Virus record (IMG/VR): IMGVR_UViG_3300047994_000600
Location: 1 to 31,514 of that record
Strand: one strand, 5' to 3'
Length of the DNA stretch: 31,514 nucleotides
DNA from: a virus
Part shown: piece after piece, positions 9,931-17,319 of the stretch
Numbering within the stretch: the stretch's first letter is position 1
Layout of the letters: each line of letters opens with the position of its first letter
Position numbers and translations under genes: made by a program
Notes under the pieces: model-generated
Database searches by the model: none
What the model saw: the letters and a program-made list of their open reading frames with translations, nothing else
What the model was told of the DNA's origin: nothing

Positions 9931-11481
9931 ATGCCGATTTTTGCAGAAGGCGCGTTGAACACGACGGCGCTGATTGTGCCGGATTTATATGTACAGATTG
10001 TGCCGCCGCAGAGCCTGCTGCTGAACGGCGTGCCGACGGATACGCTGGGTGTGGTGGGCACGGCGAGCTGGGGGCCGGTGGGTGAGCCAGTGATTATCGG
10101 GAATATGAGCGGTTATGCGGCCGCTTTTGGCCCGGTGATGGCGCGCAAATATGACATGGGCACCGCGGTGGCGGCTGCCGTGCAGCAGGGGGCCGCGAAT
10201 TTTCGCTGCGTTCGGGTGACGGACGGAAGTGATAGCGCCGCTTCACTTTCCATGCTTGGCGCGATTACGTTTACAGCTTTGTATACCGGCAGTTTGGGTA
10301 ACCAACTGACGCTGACGCTTTCGCCTGGCTCAGCCGCGAATTCCTGGCGGCTGGCGGTGGCGCTGCCGGGGCTGAGCCCGGAGGTGTTTGACAATATTAC
10401 CGGCACGGGGGCTGTGTTCTGGAGCAATCTGGCCCATGCGGTGAACAATGGGAATGGCGCGTTACGTGGGCCTTCCCAGCTTGTTGCGGCGACGACACTT
10501 TCCGCGAGTGCCACGCCGCTGGCGGGGACGTATCCGTTCTCCGCCGGTACGCCAGGGACGGATGGCGCTGGCGCGGTGACGGCGGCGACTTTGGTGGGCA
10601 GTGATACGCTGCCGCGCGCCGGCATGTACGCGCTGCGCGGGCAAGGCTGCGCGCTGGCGATGCTGGCGGATGCGGATGATGCGACGCAATGGAGCGTGCA
10701 GGCAGCGTTTGGACTTTCCGAGGCCGTGTATATGATTCTCACCGGCCCGGCGGGGGATACGATTGCCAATGCGGTGGCGGTGAAGGCCGCGGCGGGGATT
10801 GATACCTACGCCGTGAAGCTGATGTTTGGTGATTGGGTTTACTGGTATGACCAGGCGAATGCGCTGACCAGGCTGGTTTCCCCGCAGGGGTTTGTGGCGG
10901 GGCGGTTGGCGAATTTGTCGCCGGAACAGTCTTCACTGAACAAACCGCTTTACGGGGTGATTGGAACGCAGAAATCCGGCCAGCCGGGTGGTGGGACGGC
11001 GACGGCTTATGCCGCCGCGGATCTTTCCGTGCTGCTGTCAGCGGGGATTGACGTGATTGCGAACCCGCAGCCGGGTGGAACGTATTGGGGCGTACGGGGC
11101 GGGCATAATGCATCCTCCAACGCCGCTGTTCAGGGAGATAATTATACCAGGTTGACGAATTACATCGCGCGCACGCTTTCCGCCGGGATGGGGCAGTATG
11201 TGGGGCAGTTAGTGAATGCGACGCTGTTCCAGAATGTTCGTTCAACTCTGCTGGCATTTTTGAATGGGCTGCTGGGGCAGGGGATGTTAGGCAGCACGGA
11301 TGGGTCCCTGCCGTTCGCCGTGGTGTGCGACACGTCCAACAATCCCAGCACGCGGACCGGGCTTGGCTATGTGCAGGCGGATGTGCAGGTGCAGTATCAG
11401 GCGATTAACGAGAAATTCATTGTGAACGTGCAGGGCGGGCAGACGGTGCAGGTGAGCCAGCAGCTTGTGCCGAGCGCGTAA
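9931..11481 (+). CDS. Contractile tail sheath protein
   Basis: A 516-residue sheath subunit. The N-terminus has the typical sheath opening (LYVQIVPPQSLLLNGVPTD, then LGVVGTASWGPVGEPVIIG at about 39-57), the middle holds a surface domain, and the C-terminal core has NPQPGGTYWGVRGGHNASSN (about 377-396) and NYIARTLSAGMGQYVGQLVN (about 411-430) as in Mu gpL-like sheaths. AAGGAG sits before the ATG. Its presence defines the virion as a myovirus-type contractile particle, in which the sheath shortens to drive the tube and spike through the cell envelope. Length is normal for the family. Confidence 0.92.
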   Translation: MPIFAEGALNTTALIVPDLYVQIVPPQSLLLNGVPTDTLGVVGTASWGPVGEPVIIGNMSGYAAAFGPVMARKYDMGTAVAAAVQQGAANFRCVRVTDGSDSAASLSMLGAITFTALYTGSLGNQLTLTLSPGSAANSWRLAVALPGLSPEVFDNITGTGAVFWSNLAHAVNNGNGALRGPSQLVAATTLSASATPLAGTYPFSAGTPGTDGAGAVTAATLVGSDTLPRAGMYALRGQGCALAMLADADDATQWSVQAAFGLSEAVYMILTGPAGDTIANAVAVKAAAGIDTYAVKLMFGDWVYWYDQANALTRLVSPQGFVAGRLANLSPEQSSLNKPLYGVIGTQKSGQPGGGTATAYAAADLSVLLSAGIDVIANPQPGGTYWGVRGGHNASSNAAVQGDNYTRLTNYIARTLSAGMGQYVGQLVNATLFQNVRSTLLAFLNGLLGQGMLGSTDGSLPFAVVCDTSNNPSTRTGLGYVQADVQVQYQAINEKFIVNVQGGQTVQVSQQLVPSA

Positions 11482-11496: not shown

Positions 11497-11925
11497 ATGC
11501 CGTATAACACGTTTTCCGTTGGCAGTGACTGCCAGCTTGTGGTGATGGGGCCGTTCGGCCGGGTGGATTTGGCGCATGTGACGGGGTTTGAGGCAGCGCA
11601 GGTAACGCAGGCGATCCGCGTGGACCGGCTGGATGGGGTTCAGCTAGGCGCCGAGCTGCCGAAGGGATGGCAGGGTGTGTTCACGCTGGACCGCGGGTCT
11701 TCCGCAGCGGATGATTTTATCGCGGCGATTGAGAAGGCTTATCTGGCTGGGCAGTCCATTGGCACGGGGACTTTGTACCAGTATGTAAACGAGCCGGATG
11801 GATCAACTTCCACCTATCAGTTCAGCGGGGCGGTGTTCAAGCTGGTATCTGCAGGCTCGTACCGGGGGGATGCGCCGGTGGCGCAGAAATTGCAGTTTTA
11901 CGCATCCAGCCGGGTGAGGGTGTGA
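11497..11925 (+). CDS. Tail tube protein
   Basis: A 142-residue protein following the sheath gene, the standard place for the inner tube subunit of contractile tails. It shows an alternating beta pattern (DCQLVVMGPFGRVDLAHVTG, WQGVFTLDRGSS, STYQFSGAVFKLVSAGSYRG) compatible with the two-sheet tube fold whose hexamers stack inside the sheath. A long AGGAAGGAG ribosome site (11481-11489) suggests high expression. Its stop overlaps the following chaperone start (TGATG). Assignment is by synteny, length and strand pattern. Confidence 0.85.
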   Translation: MPYNTFSVGSDCQLVVMGPFGRVDLAHVTGFEAAQVTQAIRVDRLDGVQLGAELPKGWQGVFTLDRGSSAADDFIAAIEKAYLAGQSIGTGTLYQYVNEPDGSTSTYQFSGAVFKLVSAGSYRGDAPVAQKLQFYASSRVRV

Positions 11926-12227
11926 TGGAGCGGGTGATAACGGACAAGGCGGGGCGCCGGCTGACGTTGCGGAAATTTGGAGTGCTGGAGATGTTGCGGC
12001 TGTTCAAAGCTGTGGGGCCGGAATTGTCTATCAACAGGCCTTATATGGGCGCGGCAATCGTAGCATCTTCCGTTGCGATGATTGACGATGTGCCGGTGCC
12101 TATGCCGGTAAATGAGGCCGGCGTTGAAGCCGTGATGGAAAGACTGGGCGATGATGGTGTGGCGGCCGTTAGCGCGGCCATCAAGCCAGCCTCGGTTGAA
12201 CAAGTGGTGGCCGCGGCGGGAAACTAA
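11925..12227 (+). CDS. Tail assembly chaperone, short form (gpG-like)
   Basis: A 100-residue protein (MERVITDKAGRRLTLRKFG at the start, ending EQVVAAAGN) in the place of the lambda G-type tail assembly chaperone, between tube gene and tape-measure position. Such chaperones coat the tape measure and bring tube subunits to it. The last sense codons, GGA AAC, belong to the slippery heptamer G-GGA-AAC and the next codon is TAA, so most ribosomes end here and a minority shift into the -1 frame. It begins in an overlap with the tube stop codon; ATG 11925 is preferred to the GTG three bases before it. Confidence 0.85.
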   Translation: MERVITDKAGRRLTLRKFGVLEMLRLFKAVGPELSINRPYMGAAIVASSVAMIDDVPVPMPVNEAGVEAVMERLGDDGVAAVSAAIKPASVEQVVAAAGN

Positions 12228-12394
12228 GCGGGCACCCGGCATTGAAGGATTGCTTATATCTGGTTAAGTGCGGGGTGCCATATAATGTGGCTTTTGAGAT
12301 GGATGATGACGAGCGAATGGCGCATGTTGTGGCTTTTGGCGTACTGGAGGGTATGACGTTTGATTGGAAAAAGCTGAAATGGAGTGGTGGATAG
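11925..12394 (+). CDS. Tail assembly chaperone, frameshifted long form (gpGT-like)
   Basis: The product of the -1 shift at 12218-12224: 100 residues of the short chaperone plus 56 residues read from 12224 to 12391, about 156 in all. The extension reads LSGHPALKDCLYLVKCGVPY, then NVAFEMDDDERMAHVVAFGV, then LEGMTFDWKKLKWSGG. This has the look of the T domain of GT-type chaperones, with a D-D-E-R-x-A core and a final F-D-W. Upstream, the -1 frame is open only back to 12200 and offers no start codon before 12299 (a GTG at 12272 excepted), so it is best explained as a frameshift extension. The T part normally binds tube subunits while the G part binds the tape measure. Confidence 0.82.
12218..12224 (+). 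promoter_or_regulatory. -1 ribosomal frameshift site GGGAAAC
   Basis: In the chaperone frame the sequence reads G-GGA-AAC-TAA, an exact X-XXY-YYZ slippery heptamer directly followed by the stop codon. Slipping back one base pairs the tRNAs with GGG and AAA and continues CTA-AGC-GGG-CAC in an open frame to the TAG at 12392-12394. Tail chaperones of many dsDNA phages, including lambda G/GT, use this arrangement. A strong downstream stem is not obvious; only short GC complementarity around 12228-12240 is seen. Confidence 0.85.
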
Positions 12395-12455: not shown

Positions 12456-12464
12456 GAGTTGGAA

Positions 12465-13220
12465 ATGTCAAAATTTTCCGTGATACTAGAGGCCGTTACA
12501 AAACTCCGTCGTCCAGCCCTTTGGATATTCCTCGCTTCGGGCCCACTAAGCTACTTTATAGATGATTTTTTTGATTGGTTTAATGAGACATATTTTTATC
12601 TAGTTGTCCTTTTTCTGATTTTTTACTATTTGGTCTTGGTCATCTTTTTTCTGAATAAACTGTTTAAAGAGAAACGATTTCATCGCCTAATTTTTTCATT
12701 TTTGCTATTATTCACCATTGTCCTTGACTCGAACATTCCCGACTATGTCTCCGGTTTGGGATTTAGGTGGTATGTTCATCCCGAGTCGAAATATGTGAAT
12801 GATCATTGCCACCCGATACACTTTAATCAAGACGGAAAAACCTATCTTTTGGGGCTTTGTGATCTGAAAATAGATGAAACCGGTCAATCTAACTTTACAT
12901 TTCTCTATGATACAAGTGGCGATGCCGCCCTGGATATCGACACACAAACCCAAAGCGGCCGGAGAGACAGAAAAGAGTGGGTTTCGGCAATAAGACAGAT
13001 TTTTAATGACGACCCTAATGAGACTTTCGAAATTGCGGATTTTTGGGTTTACCACATAGACGGGGATTTTTATTTTGTAAATTTTGACGATGCTGATGCC
13101 GAAGGATTTATAAGGGAGTACGGTTTGCCACCGCAAAATCCCAAGAATCCATACCCTAGTATATTTTATCCGGAGCCGGATCAAAAAAATGAGCACACCT
13201 CTCGTACCCGACGGCGATAG
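12465..13220 (+). CDS. Three-helix membrane protein, first gene of cassette
   Basis: A 251-residue protein with three hydrophobic helices near the N-terminus (about residues 17-34, 43-66 and 76-92) and a C-terminal soluble domain rich in Asp and aromatic residues (CHPIHFNQDGKTYLLGLCDL, ETFEIADFWVYHIDG, FYFVNFDDADAEGF). I do not recognise a family. TAAGAG (12453-12458) precedes ATG 12465. The gene is clearly AT-richer than its neighbours and uses different codons, as expected of DNA acquired separately. Its 3' end overlaps the next gene by 32 bases, so the two are probably made together. An immunity, receptor or export partner of the next protein is conceivable. Confidence 0.65.
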   Translation: MSKFSVILEAVTKLRRPALWIFLASGPLSYFIDDFFDWFNETYFYLVVLFLIFYYLVLVIFFLNKLFKEKRFHRLIFSFLLLFTIVLDSNIPDYVSGLGFRWYVHPESKYVNDHCHPIHFNQDGKTYLLGLCDLKIDETGQSNFTFLYDTSGDAALDIDTQTQSGRRDRKEWVSAIRQIFNDDPNETFEIADFWVYHIDGDFYFVNFDDADAEGFIREYGLPPQNPKNPYPSIFYPEPDQKNEHTSRTRRR

Positions 13221-14601
13221 TGTATTTTATTCATATCCGTTCAGTCCAAAAACGTATCAACCAGATCGCTCAAAAGCGGTTGCATCAAAGTATCTGCTGA
13301 TAAACGGTTCGAAAGTCGTTGATCCGGTCGTTGGGGGCTCTGACCACGTCAATCTCTATGGAAGTCTAAATCCCGATGGCTCAATAAACGAAAATAGTCG
13401 ATTTCAGAATGCGAATAACTATCTAATCGTACCTGCCAACTACGACCCATCGGAAGCGTCTGCATTTGCGGCCTCTGTAAACGCAGATATAAAATCCCAT
13501 TCTATCTTAGGTTTGGCTACCGGCCTACCGGCGGGGATCGCCGACATGACAAGAAATTTCTTGCCAGGTGGGGGCGAAGACTTACAGCGGGGAAGCGAGT
13601 GGGGCGTTCCTAAAGGCGAGGTGGAGCCAGCTTTCAAAGATTCAACGTCCTGGAATTTGGGATTTACGGTCGCGCAGACAATGATCCCGTATGTTTTTGC
13701 CGAAATAGGGGGCGGCGCACTCAACATTGGTGAATATGTTTTAAATATTAGGCATCATAAACTCCCGTCGCTCCAATTCGGTATGGACGGAGCGGACGTG
13801 AAAGATTTCCAGTCTGGCGTTCAAGCTGCCCATCCGGCCACTGGGGATGGCTTGGGAACGATTTACAAGAATGTGCTGGGAATCGGGCATTGGCTCCACG
13901 AATCCATTGCGCCCGTCAAAAGGCCGCCAGGTCGGTCATATGGGCCACTCCGGCCGGCGAACCACGTGAATAACAGTGAGTTGACAGCCCCCGAGTCGGC
14001 GACAACGGATTTTGCTCAAGCCCATCATTATATGGCCGAAGATGCGGGCGCTTTGGCGGATACTGTTGTGCCGCATGCGGCGCTTAGTTCCTTTCATCAG
14101 ATTGGCGGAGAAGCTCTCAGAATGGGTACGACAGGCACGCCGGCACGACGCGAAATCATGCCGGGCGATCTTGGATTCTCGGTATTGCAAGGTCCAGGCA
14201 CCGGTTTTGATCACATTTTGTCAAATTTTGCGCCATATCTTCGGGATTTCCACGGATTTATGGGACCGGGTTCTCCGGTTGGCGGGATATTTCAGAACGG
14301 CCCACGGCTCAGCCCATTTACGGACCGTGACGCGTTGCCCAGCATCGCGCCGGTAGGCAGGCGGGGGCGGGGTAATATCTCAGCTGAACAGTTTTCTTCA
14401 CATTTTCTCGATCCAGCCATGCCGCCGGAGAAGAATTATTCGGAACAGACGGTTGGGGCGGAGAAAAAGATTGATCCGCGGGCATTGCGCGGCGCGCTAC
14501 AAGAATTGTTGGAGCGGCAGGGGCGATTGCCGCCTTCGGGCGGGGCAGCGTTTGATGGACGGCTGACGCCAGCGTGGCCGGGGCTGCAAATTGCGAATTA
14601 A
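13189..14601 (+). CDS. 470-residue Gly/Pro-rich protein with a C-terminal domain shared with 16343-16612
   Basis: No known family is recognised. The N-terminal part has DGDSVFYSYPFSPKTYQPDR and a hydrophobic Gly/Ala stretch SILGLATGLPAGIADMTRNF (about residues 103-122), reminiscent of linker regions in secreted toxin-like proteins. The middle is low in helix, rich in Gly, Pro and His. The last ~88 residues (LPSIAPVGRRGRGNISAEQF, EKKIDPRALRGALQELL, GRLPPSGGAAFDGRLTPAWP) match the orphan fragment 16343-16612. It sits where a tape measure should be but lacks the long continuous helix, so I doubt it measures tail length. Its first ~1.1 kb is AT-richer than the C-terminal part, suggesting a chimera: foreign body joined to a phage C-terminus. 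Confidence 0.6.
   Translation: MSTPLVPDGDSVFYSYPFSPKTYQPDRSKAVASKYLLINGSKVVDPVVGGSDHVNLYGSLNPDGSINENSRFQNANNYLIVPANYDPSEASAFAASVNADIKSHSILGLATGLPAGIADMTRNFLPGGGEDLQRGSEWGVPKGEVEPAFKDSTSWNLGFTVAQTMIPYVFAEIGGGALNIGEYVLNIRHHKLPSLQFGMDGADVKDFQSGVQAAHPATGDGLGTIYKNVLGIGHWLHESIAPVKRPPGRSYGPLRPANHVNNSELTAPESATTDFAQAHHYMAEDAGALADTVVPHAALSSFHQIGGEALRMGTTGTPARREIMPGDLGFSVLQGPGTGFDHILSNFAPYLRDFHGFMGPGSPVGGIFQNGPRLSPFTDRDALPSIAPVGRRGRGNISAEQFSSHFLDPAMPPEKNYSEQTVGAEKKIDPRALRGALQELLERQGRLPPSGGAAFDGRLTPAWPGLQIAN
14335..14601 (+). repeat. Copy 1 of a diverged coding direct repeat
   Basis: The 3' end of the 470-residue gene. Its translation aligns without frame change to 16343-16612; shared blocks include LPS-APV-RR, AEKKID, LRGAL-ELL, QGRLPP, GGAAFD, RLTPAWPGLQ. 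At DNA level the last ~140 bases of both copies are similar but clearly not identical, so this is an old duplication or two alleles brought together, not a recent copy. Confidence 0.8.
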
Positions 14602-14706
14602 GGTTTGTAATTTATTACGAAAATGTGATGAATTTCGCTGCGCTGAACCCATTCTACGTCCTGCTGTTTAACCCTTATTGAATGAAGTGGTGCTAACGGG
14701 TTGGGC

Positions 14707-15669
14707 ATGAGGCGAGTTCTTGGTCTGGGCGTTGCATGTTTATTTTCTGCTCTGCTGGCGGTAGCGGCCGCGTTTTATTGCTATGACGGCATGTATGGCG
14801 TTAGCACCGTGTTGCACGGCGGGCCGACACGGTGGCTTACGATGCAGGCCGATGACAAGCGGCTGCCGCTTGAAATTCAGTGGGCGCTTGGCGGAACGCC
14901 GCCGGAAGCGACGCCTGGGCCATTTGCATGGCGGAAGATTGAGCCTGGGCTGGAGGTTGCGGAACTGCCGGCGATGGCCGGGGCGCGCCAAGTTGACAGC
15001 ATATTGCTGACGCGGATCGACACAGGTAAGTTTCGGTTTGTGTTGTGGAGCAGGGCCGCAGGCGATCGTGACCTTGCTGGTTGGATGCGCGCGTTAAAGC
15101 CGGTTGTGCTGATTAACGGCAGTTATTTTTCGCCGGGCGGGCGGCCGGATACGCCGTTTTTGAGTGATGGCCGGCTGATTTCATCGCGCAATGACACGCC
15201 GGCGCAGGGTGTTTTTGTGGCCGGGCAAAGCGGGGCGGCGGTTGAGGCACTGCCGGACGGCGATTGGGCGCGGGCTTTCCAGGGTGTTGAGACTGCGCTG
15301 GCGACGTACCCGCTACTGATTGGGCCGGATGGGTTCAATGCGGGTATTCATGAAAGCCATTGGGTAGCCAACCGGAGTTTCGTGGGGGAGGATGGCCAGG
15401 GCCGGATTATTCTGGGTACGACGACCGGGGCGTTTTTCTCTCTCACTCGATTTGCGGAATTTCTCTATTCGGCGCCGTTGGGGTTGAGGCTGGCGTTGAA
15501 TTTAGATGGCGGGCCGGTGGCGTGCCAGGCGGTGGATACGCCGGAATACCAGCGCCGGTTTTGCGGGGAATGGGAGATACGAGACCGCGGTGGAATGTTT
15601 AAAGTTTTGAAAATGTCGAAGGGGAGTTGGATACCGTTGCCTGTTGTGCTTACAGTGTATCTGAAGTGA
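14707..15669 (+). CDS. Phosphodiester glycosidase-like protein (NAGPA/DUF2233)
   Basis: A 320-residue protein with an N-terminal signal anchor (about residues 5-23) and a periplasmic or secreted domain. It has hallmarks of the NAGPA/DUF2233 family (phosphodiester alpha-GlcNAcase type): VLINGSYFSPGGRPDTPFLS with an asparagine and small residues before SYF, TYPLLIGPDG, the GRIILGTTTGAFFSLTRFAEFL core and ALNLDGGPVACQ with the conserved D-G-G. Members cleave sugar-phosphodiester bonds or bind glycans in the envelope. ATG 14707 is chosen; a TTG two codons earlier is also in frame. GC content resembles the host more than the preceding gene. As part of the block replacing the tape measure it is probably accessory cargo. 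Confidence 0.75.
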   Translation: MRRVLGLGVACLFSALLAVAAAFYCYDGMYGVSTVLHGGPTRWLTMQADDKRLPLEIQWALGGTPPEATPGPFAWRKIEPGLEVAELPAMAGARQVDSILLTRIDTGKFRFVLWSRAAGDRDLAGWMRALKPVVLINGSYFSPGGRPDTPFLSDGRLISSRNDTPAQGVFVAGQSGAAVEALPDGDWARAFQGVETALATYPLLIGPDGFNAGIHESHWVANRSFVGEDGQGRIILGTTTGAFFSLTRFAEFLYSAPLGLRLALNLDGGPVACQAVDTPEYQRRFCGEWEIRDRGGMFKVLKMSKGSWIPLPVVLTVYLK

Positions 15670-15692: not shown

Positions 15693-15881
15693 ATGTTTCC
15701 TTCACTAGATATAATAGACATTTTGACCTCATGGCCCATTTTGGCTATTCCGGAATTTTTGATTCTGTATGCTTTGTCCAGGTTTGTTGTGATGCTCGGC
15801 TTCAGAAAGTCTGGGCTATTCATGTTTCTTTATTTGCTCGATCAAATCGTCATCGTTACCGCTAATCAAGCGGCAGATTAG
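15693..15881 (+). CDS. Small membrane protein A (62 residues)
   Basis: A 62-residue hydrophobic protein with about two membrane segments (ILTSWPILAIPEFLILYALS at about 10-29 and FRKSGLFMFLYLLDQIVIVT at about 37-56). AT-rich, with no strong ribosome site. Its first segment resembles that of the next gene (ILAIPEFLILYALSR versus IFAIPVSLAFYLVFR), so the two look like tandem paralogues. No function recognised; the colicin-immunity-like appearance (tiny helix bundle after a putative effector gene) is only suggestive. Confidence 0.5.
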   Translation: MFPSLDIIDILTSWPILAIPEFLILYALSRFVVMLGFRKSGLFMFLYLLDQIVIVTANQAAD

Positions 15882-15897: not shown

Positions 15898-16245
15898 ATG
15901 TTGCATTCCAACGCATTGCTCAATCTTGTCACTTTAGGGCCGATCTTTGCTATACCGGTTTCCCTGGCTTTCTATCTGGTTTTTCGGCATTCAATTGGGA
16001 AATCTGTACCAGGACTAGCTTTGTTATTTCTCGCTACTCCTGGCGTCTTGCTCGCTTATCTATGGTGGCTTATTTTAGATGATAGTTTTTTATACTATAT
16101 TTGTTTTAGTATCATTATAATTCCAACCAATGTCGCATCGCCATGTTTTGCGATTTACGCAGTTTTTTTGACTTGTAAAAAAAGCGACGTTGTAAAAATG
16201 TCAGACCTACAAAAAAAATACTTAAAATATCGATTGGATGCCTAG
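15898..16245 (+). CDS. Small membrane protein B (115 residues)
   Basis: A 115-residue protein with three or four hydrophobic segments (about residues 8-28, 36-58, 64-92) and a short basic cytosolic tail (KKSDVVKMSDLQKKYLKYRL). It is AT-rich and follows its likely paralogue after 16 bases. The shared first segment suggests a duplication followed by lengthening. Only a weak ribosome site (GCGAAAAA) is seen. Unknown function; it is the last complete gene of the cassette before the orphan tape-measure-type fragment. Confidence 0.55.
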   Translation: MLHSNALLNLVTLGPIFAIPVSLAFYLVFRHSIGKSVPGLALLFLATPGVLLAYLWWLILDDSFLYYICFSIIIIPTNVASPCFAIYAVFLTCKKSDVVKMSDLQKKYLKYRLDA

Positions 16246-16342: not shown

Positions 16343-16612
16343 ATGTTGCCGAGTGTTGCGCCGGTAGCCCGGCGGGACGCAGCGGGGATTTCGACGGAAC
16401 AGTTGATTGCACACCATTCCAGCGCGTCAGTATCCGCTGGTCACCAGCATATGGCGCCGGTTTTGCCGGCCGAGAAAAAAATTGATCAGCGGCAGTTGCG
16501 TGGGGCGTTGGATGAGTTGCTGAGCCTGCAGGGGCGGTTGCCGCCTGCCGGTGGGGCGGCGTTTGATGCACGGCTAACGCCAGCGTGGCCTGGGCTGCAA
16601 CTGCCCGTTTGA
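16343..16612 (+). pseudogene. Orphan 3' fragment, probably of the tape-measure gene (repeat copy 2)
   Basis: An 89-codon frame beginning LPSVAPVARRDAAGISTEQL after the ATG and ending PAGGAAFDARLTPAWPGLQL. It matches the last ~88 residues of the 470-residue protein from its first residues on; just upstream (before about 16335) the similarity ends abruptly, and there is no ribosome site before ATG 16343. It stops eight bases before the first baseplate gene, exactly where the 3' end of a tape-measure gene is expected. Most simply it is the remnant of the original gene after its body was replaced. It might still be translated as a small protein, but nothing in the sequence argues for that. Confidence 0.6.
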
Positions 16613-16620
16613 GGGGTGAC

Positions 16621-17319
16621 ATGAGCCAAGTGATTTTGACCCTGGGTGGCGTGAAATTCCAGGATTTTGAAGTGCCGGAGCAGATCCGCTTCGGCGCCGG
16701 GCAGCGCCTGGCAGTGCATGAGCTGATCGGCGGCGGCCGGGTGGTGGATGCGTTGGGGGATGAGGCCGGCGAGGTGGTATTCTCCGGCATATTTTCGGGT
16801 GATGACGCGGCCACGCGGGCGCGGGTGCTGGATGCGGCGCGGGCACTGGGGGCGGCGATTCCGCTGGTGTGGGATGGGTTTTACTACACGGTGGTGATTG
16901 CGGAATTCGCCGCGGAATACAAGAAGCCTTGGTGGATTCCGTTTGTGCTGCGCTGCGTGGTGGTGGTGGACCCGGCACTAGCCCTGGAAACATTGCTGGC
17001 GCCTGTTGGTAATTTGATCAGCGATGATATTTCGGCGGCTGCCGGCTTGCTTTCCCTGGCCGGTTTGCCGGCGGGGAGTCTGGGGGCGGTGACGGCTTCC
17101 GGGCTTGCGGCGGCGCAGGCGGCGATCACCGCCGGCATTGCCGGCACCGGCGCGCTTCTGGATGAAAATGTTACGGTCTTGCAAGCGGCACCGGATGCGG
17201 TGACGGGCATTGCGGCGCTGGGCCAGGTGACTGCCAATGCAGGGCAACTGGCGGGGCTTGCCGGCATGTCCGGTTATGTAAATCGCGCGGCCACGAATCT
17301 GGTGGGTGAATTTTTATGA
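16621..17319 (+). CDS. Tail/baseplate protein after the tape-measure position
   Basis: A 232-residue protein with an N-terminal domain seen in P2 gpU-like and Mu gpN-like tail proteins: ILTLGGVKFQDFEVPEQIRF, then ALGDEAGEVVFSGIFSGDDA, ARALGAAIPLVWDGFYYTVV, and PWWIPFVLRCVVV. The C-terminal half (about 125-232) is Ala/Gly/Leu-rich helix, possibly an extension into the baseplate or a membrane-contact segment. GAGGGG lies before ATG 16621. It is the first gene of the baseplate operon and its stop overlaps the next start (ATGA, 17316-17319). Position matches the Mu gene right after the tape measure. Confidence 0.65.
   Translation: MSQVILTLGGVKFQDFEVPEQIRFGAGQRLAVHELIGGGRVVDALGDEAGEVVFSGIFSGDDAATRARVLDAARALGAAIPLVWDGFYYTVVIAEFAAEYKKPWWIPFVLRCVVVVDPALALETLLAPVGNLISDDISAAAGLLSLAGLPAGSLGAVTASGLAAAQAAITAGIAGTGALLDENVTVLQAAPDAVTGIAALGQVTANAGQLAGLAGMSGYVNRAATNLVGEFL

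Follow-up and report, generated by a model that had tools for sequence, protein, structure and literature searches.

The window analyzed here, the whole of a 31.5-kb virus record, comes from a phage of acid-loving bacteria and carries terminase, capsid, sheath, tube and later tail genes in order; the features discussed below are all on the plus strand. The tail sheath protein (9931-11481; PHROG 23 tail sheath, E 4e-49) is directly followed by a 142-residue tail tube protein (11497-11925), whose homologs are 58-96% identical in 75 viral loci. The tube call rests on position, as the family matched by this protein, PHROG 12993 (E 4e-37), has no assigned function. Directly after the sheath and tube genes comes an open reading frame of 100 codons (11925-12227, stop included), the G form of a tail assembly chaperone. 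Its ATG start at 11925 overlaps the stop of the tube gene as TGATG, and its sole family match is PHROG 20383 (E 7e-19), listed as function unknown.

The 3' end of G reads GCG GCG GGA AAC TAA and contains the slippery heptamer GGGAAAC (12218-12224) in the register G GGA AAC, with the stop codon TAA (12225-12227) as the next codon. From 12200 onward, the -1 frame has no stop until the TAG at 12392-12394, and the part of it that follows the heptamer (12224-12394) encodes a T extension of 56 residues plus stop, LSGHPALKDCLYLVKCGVPYNVAFEMDDDERMAHVVAFGVLEGMTFDWKKLKWSGG. Products of 100 residues (G) and 156 residues (GT) are predicted. A first-pass annotation, made from the sequence of the window, had pointed to this heptamer with its adjoining stop and to a 56-codon continuation in the -1 frame, and both are there. 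Under a first-order Markov model, however, about 0.2 sites at which such a heptamer abuts a stop and the -1 frame stays open for at least 50 codons are expected per window by chance. The window alone is only mildly unusual in this respect, and the proof therefore rests on comparative conservation.

Conservation of the frameshift site and of the -1 frame

Relatives were gathered as viral contigs, by searches with the fused protein and the tube protein, and as prophages from a scan of bacterial genomes, mostly Acetobacteraceae such as Acidocella, Acidisoma and Acidisphaera. With identical copies removed, and with the window and Komagataeibacter phage phiKX1 (LC644975) counted in, 145 distinct loci hold both parts. 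The T part lies in the -1 frame in every one of them, and an in-register heptamer is present in 144 (GGGAAAC in 131, AAAAAAC in 10, and CCCAAAC, GGGAAAT and AAAAAAA in one each). The stop codon directly abuts the heptamer in 132 loci and comes 3 or 18 nt later in 12. Conservation of the heptamer in relatives had been proposed in the first-pass annotation as a check on its main claim, that a programmed -1 frameshift in the tail chaperone gene yields G and GT forms, and the comparison of the 145 loci supports that claim. At the one other locus, L156, T is in the -1 frame with no recognizable heptamer; a different shift site, decay or an assembly error are possible there.

A sequencing error or decay could be argued to underlie the frame break, or the -1 product could arise from transcriptional slippage, for which the ten loci with A_AAA_AAC offer six A in a row. 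However, the runs in GGGAAAC are just three bases long, too short for polymerase slippage, and the break is kept in 145 loci from many assemblies. We give these explanations almost no weight.

The extension itself is under purifying selection. When the arms of the hairpin described below are left out, dN/dS for T is 0.19-0.23 in its own frame versus 0.9-2.1 in the other two frames. Codon constraint was counted on a set of 119 sequences less than 92% identical to one another. In this set, the glycine codon of the heptamer is GGA in 108 of 108 cases and the asparagine codon is AAC in 117 of 118; outside the heptamer and hairpin, codons mostly have observed/expected values near 1, as codon usage predicts. 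The residues that the first-pass annotation had singled out in the extension fared unequally: F-D-W holds (F in 107, D in 109 and W in 95 of 119 sequences), but within D-D-E-R only R is invariant and E is common (88/119).

Alternatively, G and the extension could be two separate genes, the second independently started, with the heptamer being incidental. The deposited annotation of phiKX1 treats them in this way, giving G and T as two ORFs and two hypothetical proteins, and in doing so bears out the earlier expectation that normal gene calling would miss the extension. However, no ATG occurs in the window's T frame between the upstream stop (12197) and 12300, and the first start-type codon of that frame, TTG at 12242, lies beyond the conserved L-S-x-H-P. 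Independent starts would also leave the invariant GGA and AAC codons and their register unexplained, and we consider the existence of two genes highly improbable.

The predicted structure of G (pLDDT 92) is most similar to YqbN (3KLU, Z 5.7) and to the HK97 tail assembly chaperone (2OB9, Z 5.1). These fold matches are modest (Foldseek E 0.54; Z below 6; 5 of 98 chains reach Z 2). It is because the fold match combines with gene position and with the frameshift that we judge the identification of G as a tail assembly chaperone to be secure.

A conserved hairpin downstream of the slippery site

After a spacer of 6 nt, the heptamer is followed by a probable stimulatory hairpin (12231-12279) that was absent from the first-pass annotation. 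Its arms are GGCACCC (12231-12237) and GGGTGCC (12273-12279), and in the window it folds with -25.5 kcal/mol (z -3.2). In almost all loci, GGCACCC(CG) begins 6 nt past the heptamer, and its partner (CG)GGGTGCC lies about 40 nt further on. Across ten hairpin pairs in 52 sequences, 91% of cells are paired, a share that drops to 38-50% if the partner is shifted by 1-3 columns. Both arms are under synonymous constraint in the 119-sequence set, and in the 3' arm glycine is encoded by GGG in 117 of 119 sequences and valine by GTG in 119 of 119, a constraint without parallel elsewhere in T. Covariation is thin, consisting of one double change (L005, L036) plus wobble changes, because the arms hardly vary. 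Given this thin covariation, we strongly infer, short of proof, that the hairpin is a frameshift stimulator.

The pairing might instead reflect constraint on the encoded protein or some other RNA signal, either of which would be compatible with the frameshift itself. The H-P and G-V-P residues encoded by this region are conserved, and weak covariation would fit such a view. However, GGG and GTG are almost never swapped for synonyms, whereas glycine and valine codons elsewhere in T vary freely; the 5' arm begins at the same distance from the heptamer in nearly all loci; and both sides changed together in L005 and L036. As for another RNA signal, a search of Rfam returned no family at threshold and a single sub-threshold chance match. 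We therefore regard a role other than stimulation as unlikely. A pseudoknot was also considered and rejected, as constraint is not visibly raised in the hairpin loop.

In the relatives, the heptamer nearly always has AAC, not AAG, as its A-site codon. In bacteria A_AAC is a weaker slip codon than A_AAG, and AAG is favored in E. coli; this may be why the stimulator is kept.

The tape-measure slot and its anchor

The interval between T and the next conserved gene (16621-17319; 232 residues, phrog_21362, function not assigned), to which we refer as the tape-measure slot, differs in length among the relatives, between about 0 bp and several kb. In the window it holds a 470-residue protein (13189-14601) in the tape-measure position, between the chaperone and the next tail gene. 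This protein is composed of an N-terminal body, a disordered linker and a C-terminal anchor (14428-14595; anchor HMM E 1.6e-25). Its AlphaFold model is of low confidence (pLDDT 43), residues 216-430 are predicted to be disordered, and a comparison of this low-confidence model with the PDB gave no match with E below 0.001. Neither this protein nor the slot genes have a tape-measure family match in Pfam, PHROG or NCBIfam.

The slot proteins are alike at one end. The last 110 residues of 87 proteins form one cluster, and their N-terminal bodies fall into about 38. An anchor HMM (A6) was built on the last 58 residues, which carry the motif RLPPSGxTxFDPRLTPAWAG. Among the 94 loci with a filled slot, the anchor occurs inside the slot once in 91, twice in the window and not at all in phiKX1 and L173; the anchor of the window protein is thus common to 91 of 93 comparable relatives. 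The wider family includes 31 bodies with a common N-terminal segment, after which the ones measured have a Pro/Ala-rich stretch, and these may resemble a minimal ruler. The N-terminal motif of these bodies, DAYxIGIxLAL, looks similar by eye to the phiKX1 tape measure, but an HMM of this N-terminal part does not recover phiKX1, and we dismissed the homology. Slot bodies in the clade of the window are larger, mostly 456-512 residues, and are accompanied by companion genes.

The first-pass annotation had proposed that the tape measure was lost, and recently, from which it would follow that the frameshift is a relic. The window slot protein does lack a Pfam, NCBIfam or PHROG tape-measure match. 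However, the slot is filled, and by a gene that carries the anchor of the family, which speaks against the loss; and a recognizable long tape measure of known type is absent from the slots of all close relatives and not of this phage alone, which speaks against a recent date. Furthermore, GT is under the same purifying selection in loci where the slot is empty (dN/dS for T 0.21). The relic explanation is therefore very unlikely.

The empty slots are instructive in this regard. They occur in 18 loci, with about four changes of state on the tree, at least two of them on well-supported branches, and gene content within 10 kb revealed no slot substitute in the five empty-slot loci listed. Family-wide loss of the tape measure, which these 18 slots might suggest at a range of 10 kb, was set aside when whole-genome searches turned up the anchor gene at a greater distance downstream in every empty-slot assembly tested. 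In six of these (L110, L117, L109, L113, L099 and L118) coordinate subtraction places it 16-17 kb past the tube gene, with contig identity inferred from coordinates for L113, L099 and L118. Where its surroundings were read (L183:1263-2096 and L184:17793-18593), it sits after the lysis genes, at the right-hand end of the prophage. Thus, these lineages have not lost the anchor gene; it has relocated. Two short viral records, G011 and G012 (L078 and L075), are without an anchor gene and may be fragments.

A ribosomal protein L20-like gene occurs just beyond the anchor gene in L183 and in L186 (L186:12-488, at the contig start), which suggests a shared integration site.

Companion genes and a second cassette

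Upstream of the slot protein, the window has a companion gene (12459-13220) for a 253-residue protein with a hydrophobic N-terminal part. Its family, F2, accompanies slot proteins that have this type of body. A second cassette also seems to be present in the window; it comprises a phosphodiester glycosidase gene (14701-15669; Pfam NAGPA, E 1e-14) that is 84% identical to the copy in relative L007, two small hydrophobic proteins (15693-15881, family F3; and 15898-16245, of 115 residues versus 137 in L007), and an 89-residue remnant of a second slot protein with little beyond the C-terminal anchor (16343-16612; anchor HMM E 1.2e-24). In comparison with L007, about 1.3 kb, amounting to most of a 496-residue ORF, is absent from this cassette. 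The remnant seems to be the leftover of a cassette that is intact in L007. The glycosidase gene is also found in the tail modules of three relatives, beside small hydrophobic proteins.

Companion family matches body type: F2 occurs with the type of the window, F3 and the NAGPA glycosidase (F4) with the L003/L007 type, and F7 with a type that matches tail-lysozyme PHROG 27932; the counts are low, however, and the loci are relatives of one another. Slot proteins with the tail-lysozyme segment (shown for L033) occur at L033:2022-3455, L030:4656-6086 and L045:9435-10895, each paired with a small secreted-looking protein. In the account given in PMC13190303, the prophage membrane protein gp15 of HK97 targets the tape measure of an incoming phage and so blocks its entry. 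Given this precedent, it is reasonable to read the companion genes as possible cognate exclusion factors.

Discussion

We propose that the phage makes two forms of its tail assembly chaperone, G and GT, by a programmed -1 frameshift at G GGA AAC that is aided by the downstream hairpin. We put the probability of this reading, which draws on the comparison of genomes, at about 95%. In this scenario, most ribosomes would terminate at the TAA at 12225 and release the 100-residue G. A minority would pause at the hairpin 6 nt downstream of the heptamer, slip back one base (GGA to GGG and AAC to AAA), and read 56 more codons to produce the 156-residue GT fusion; the predicted ratio of G to GT would accordingly favor G. 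By analogy with lambda, G may coat a tape-measure-like protein, while the T part may recruit tail tube subunits. The anchored slot protein (13189-14601) would be among the protein partners, and we consider it a candidate ruler.

The system is a new member of the lambda G/GT-type frameshift chaperones, and the mechanism is already known. As described for lambda and HK97 (PMC5009743), the -1 slip is near the end of the gene following the tail tube gene, there are short G and long GT forms, and the arrangement is conserved across distant phages. Several differences set the present phages apart: the slip codon is A_AAC rather than A_AAG, a strongly conserved hairpin lies downstream of the slip site, the tail is contractile, and the client protein lacks a recognizable tape-measure identity. 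Haloarchaeal viruses HCTV-1 and HCTV-2 have g-t heptamers (G_GGA_AAC and A_AAA_AAC) identical to those found here (PMC5009743), but these are archaeal siphoviruses, and the comparison is by published heptamer alone. The distant relative phiKX1 shares the gene order up to the chaperone, and has the heptamer A_AAA_AAC followed by TGA, the same hairpin and the same start of the -1 extension. It differs in its 742-residue slot protein, which has weak tape-measure matches (PHROG 28) in place of the anchor. A literature search found no paper on this frameshift or on the tape measures of Acidocella phages.

From the perspective of tail evolution, one tentative possibility, which we regard as doubtful at present, is that the tape measure of Acetobacteraceae phages is modular. 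The 58-residue anchor would be constant, and the bodies (Pro/Ala-rich mini-ruler, tail-lysozyme-like and other types) would be swapped freely. The larger bodies would come with matching membrane or secreted partners, whose role would be cognate superinfection exclusion or immunity, and certain lineages would have relocated the gene to the prophage's far end. One unchanged frameshifting chaperone would serve all of these.

For phage annotation, the findings contribute a set of -1 frameshift sites that are well conserved and apparently not yet annotated. Two families now listed without a known function would be renamed, PHROG 20383 as tail chaperone and PHROG 12993 as tail tube. The role of the hairpin could be tested by silent mutations. 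What seemed to be a chaperone without a tape measure becomes a question of whether one chaperone may serve rulers that are alike only in a short C-terminal anchor, and raises the further question of what purpose the swapped bodies of the slot proteins serve.
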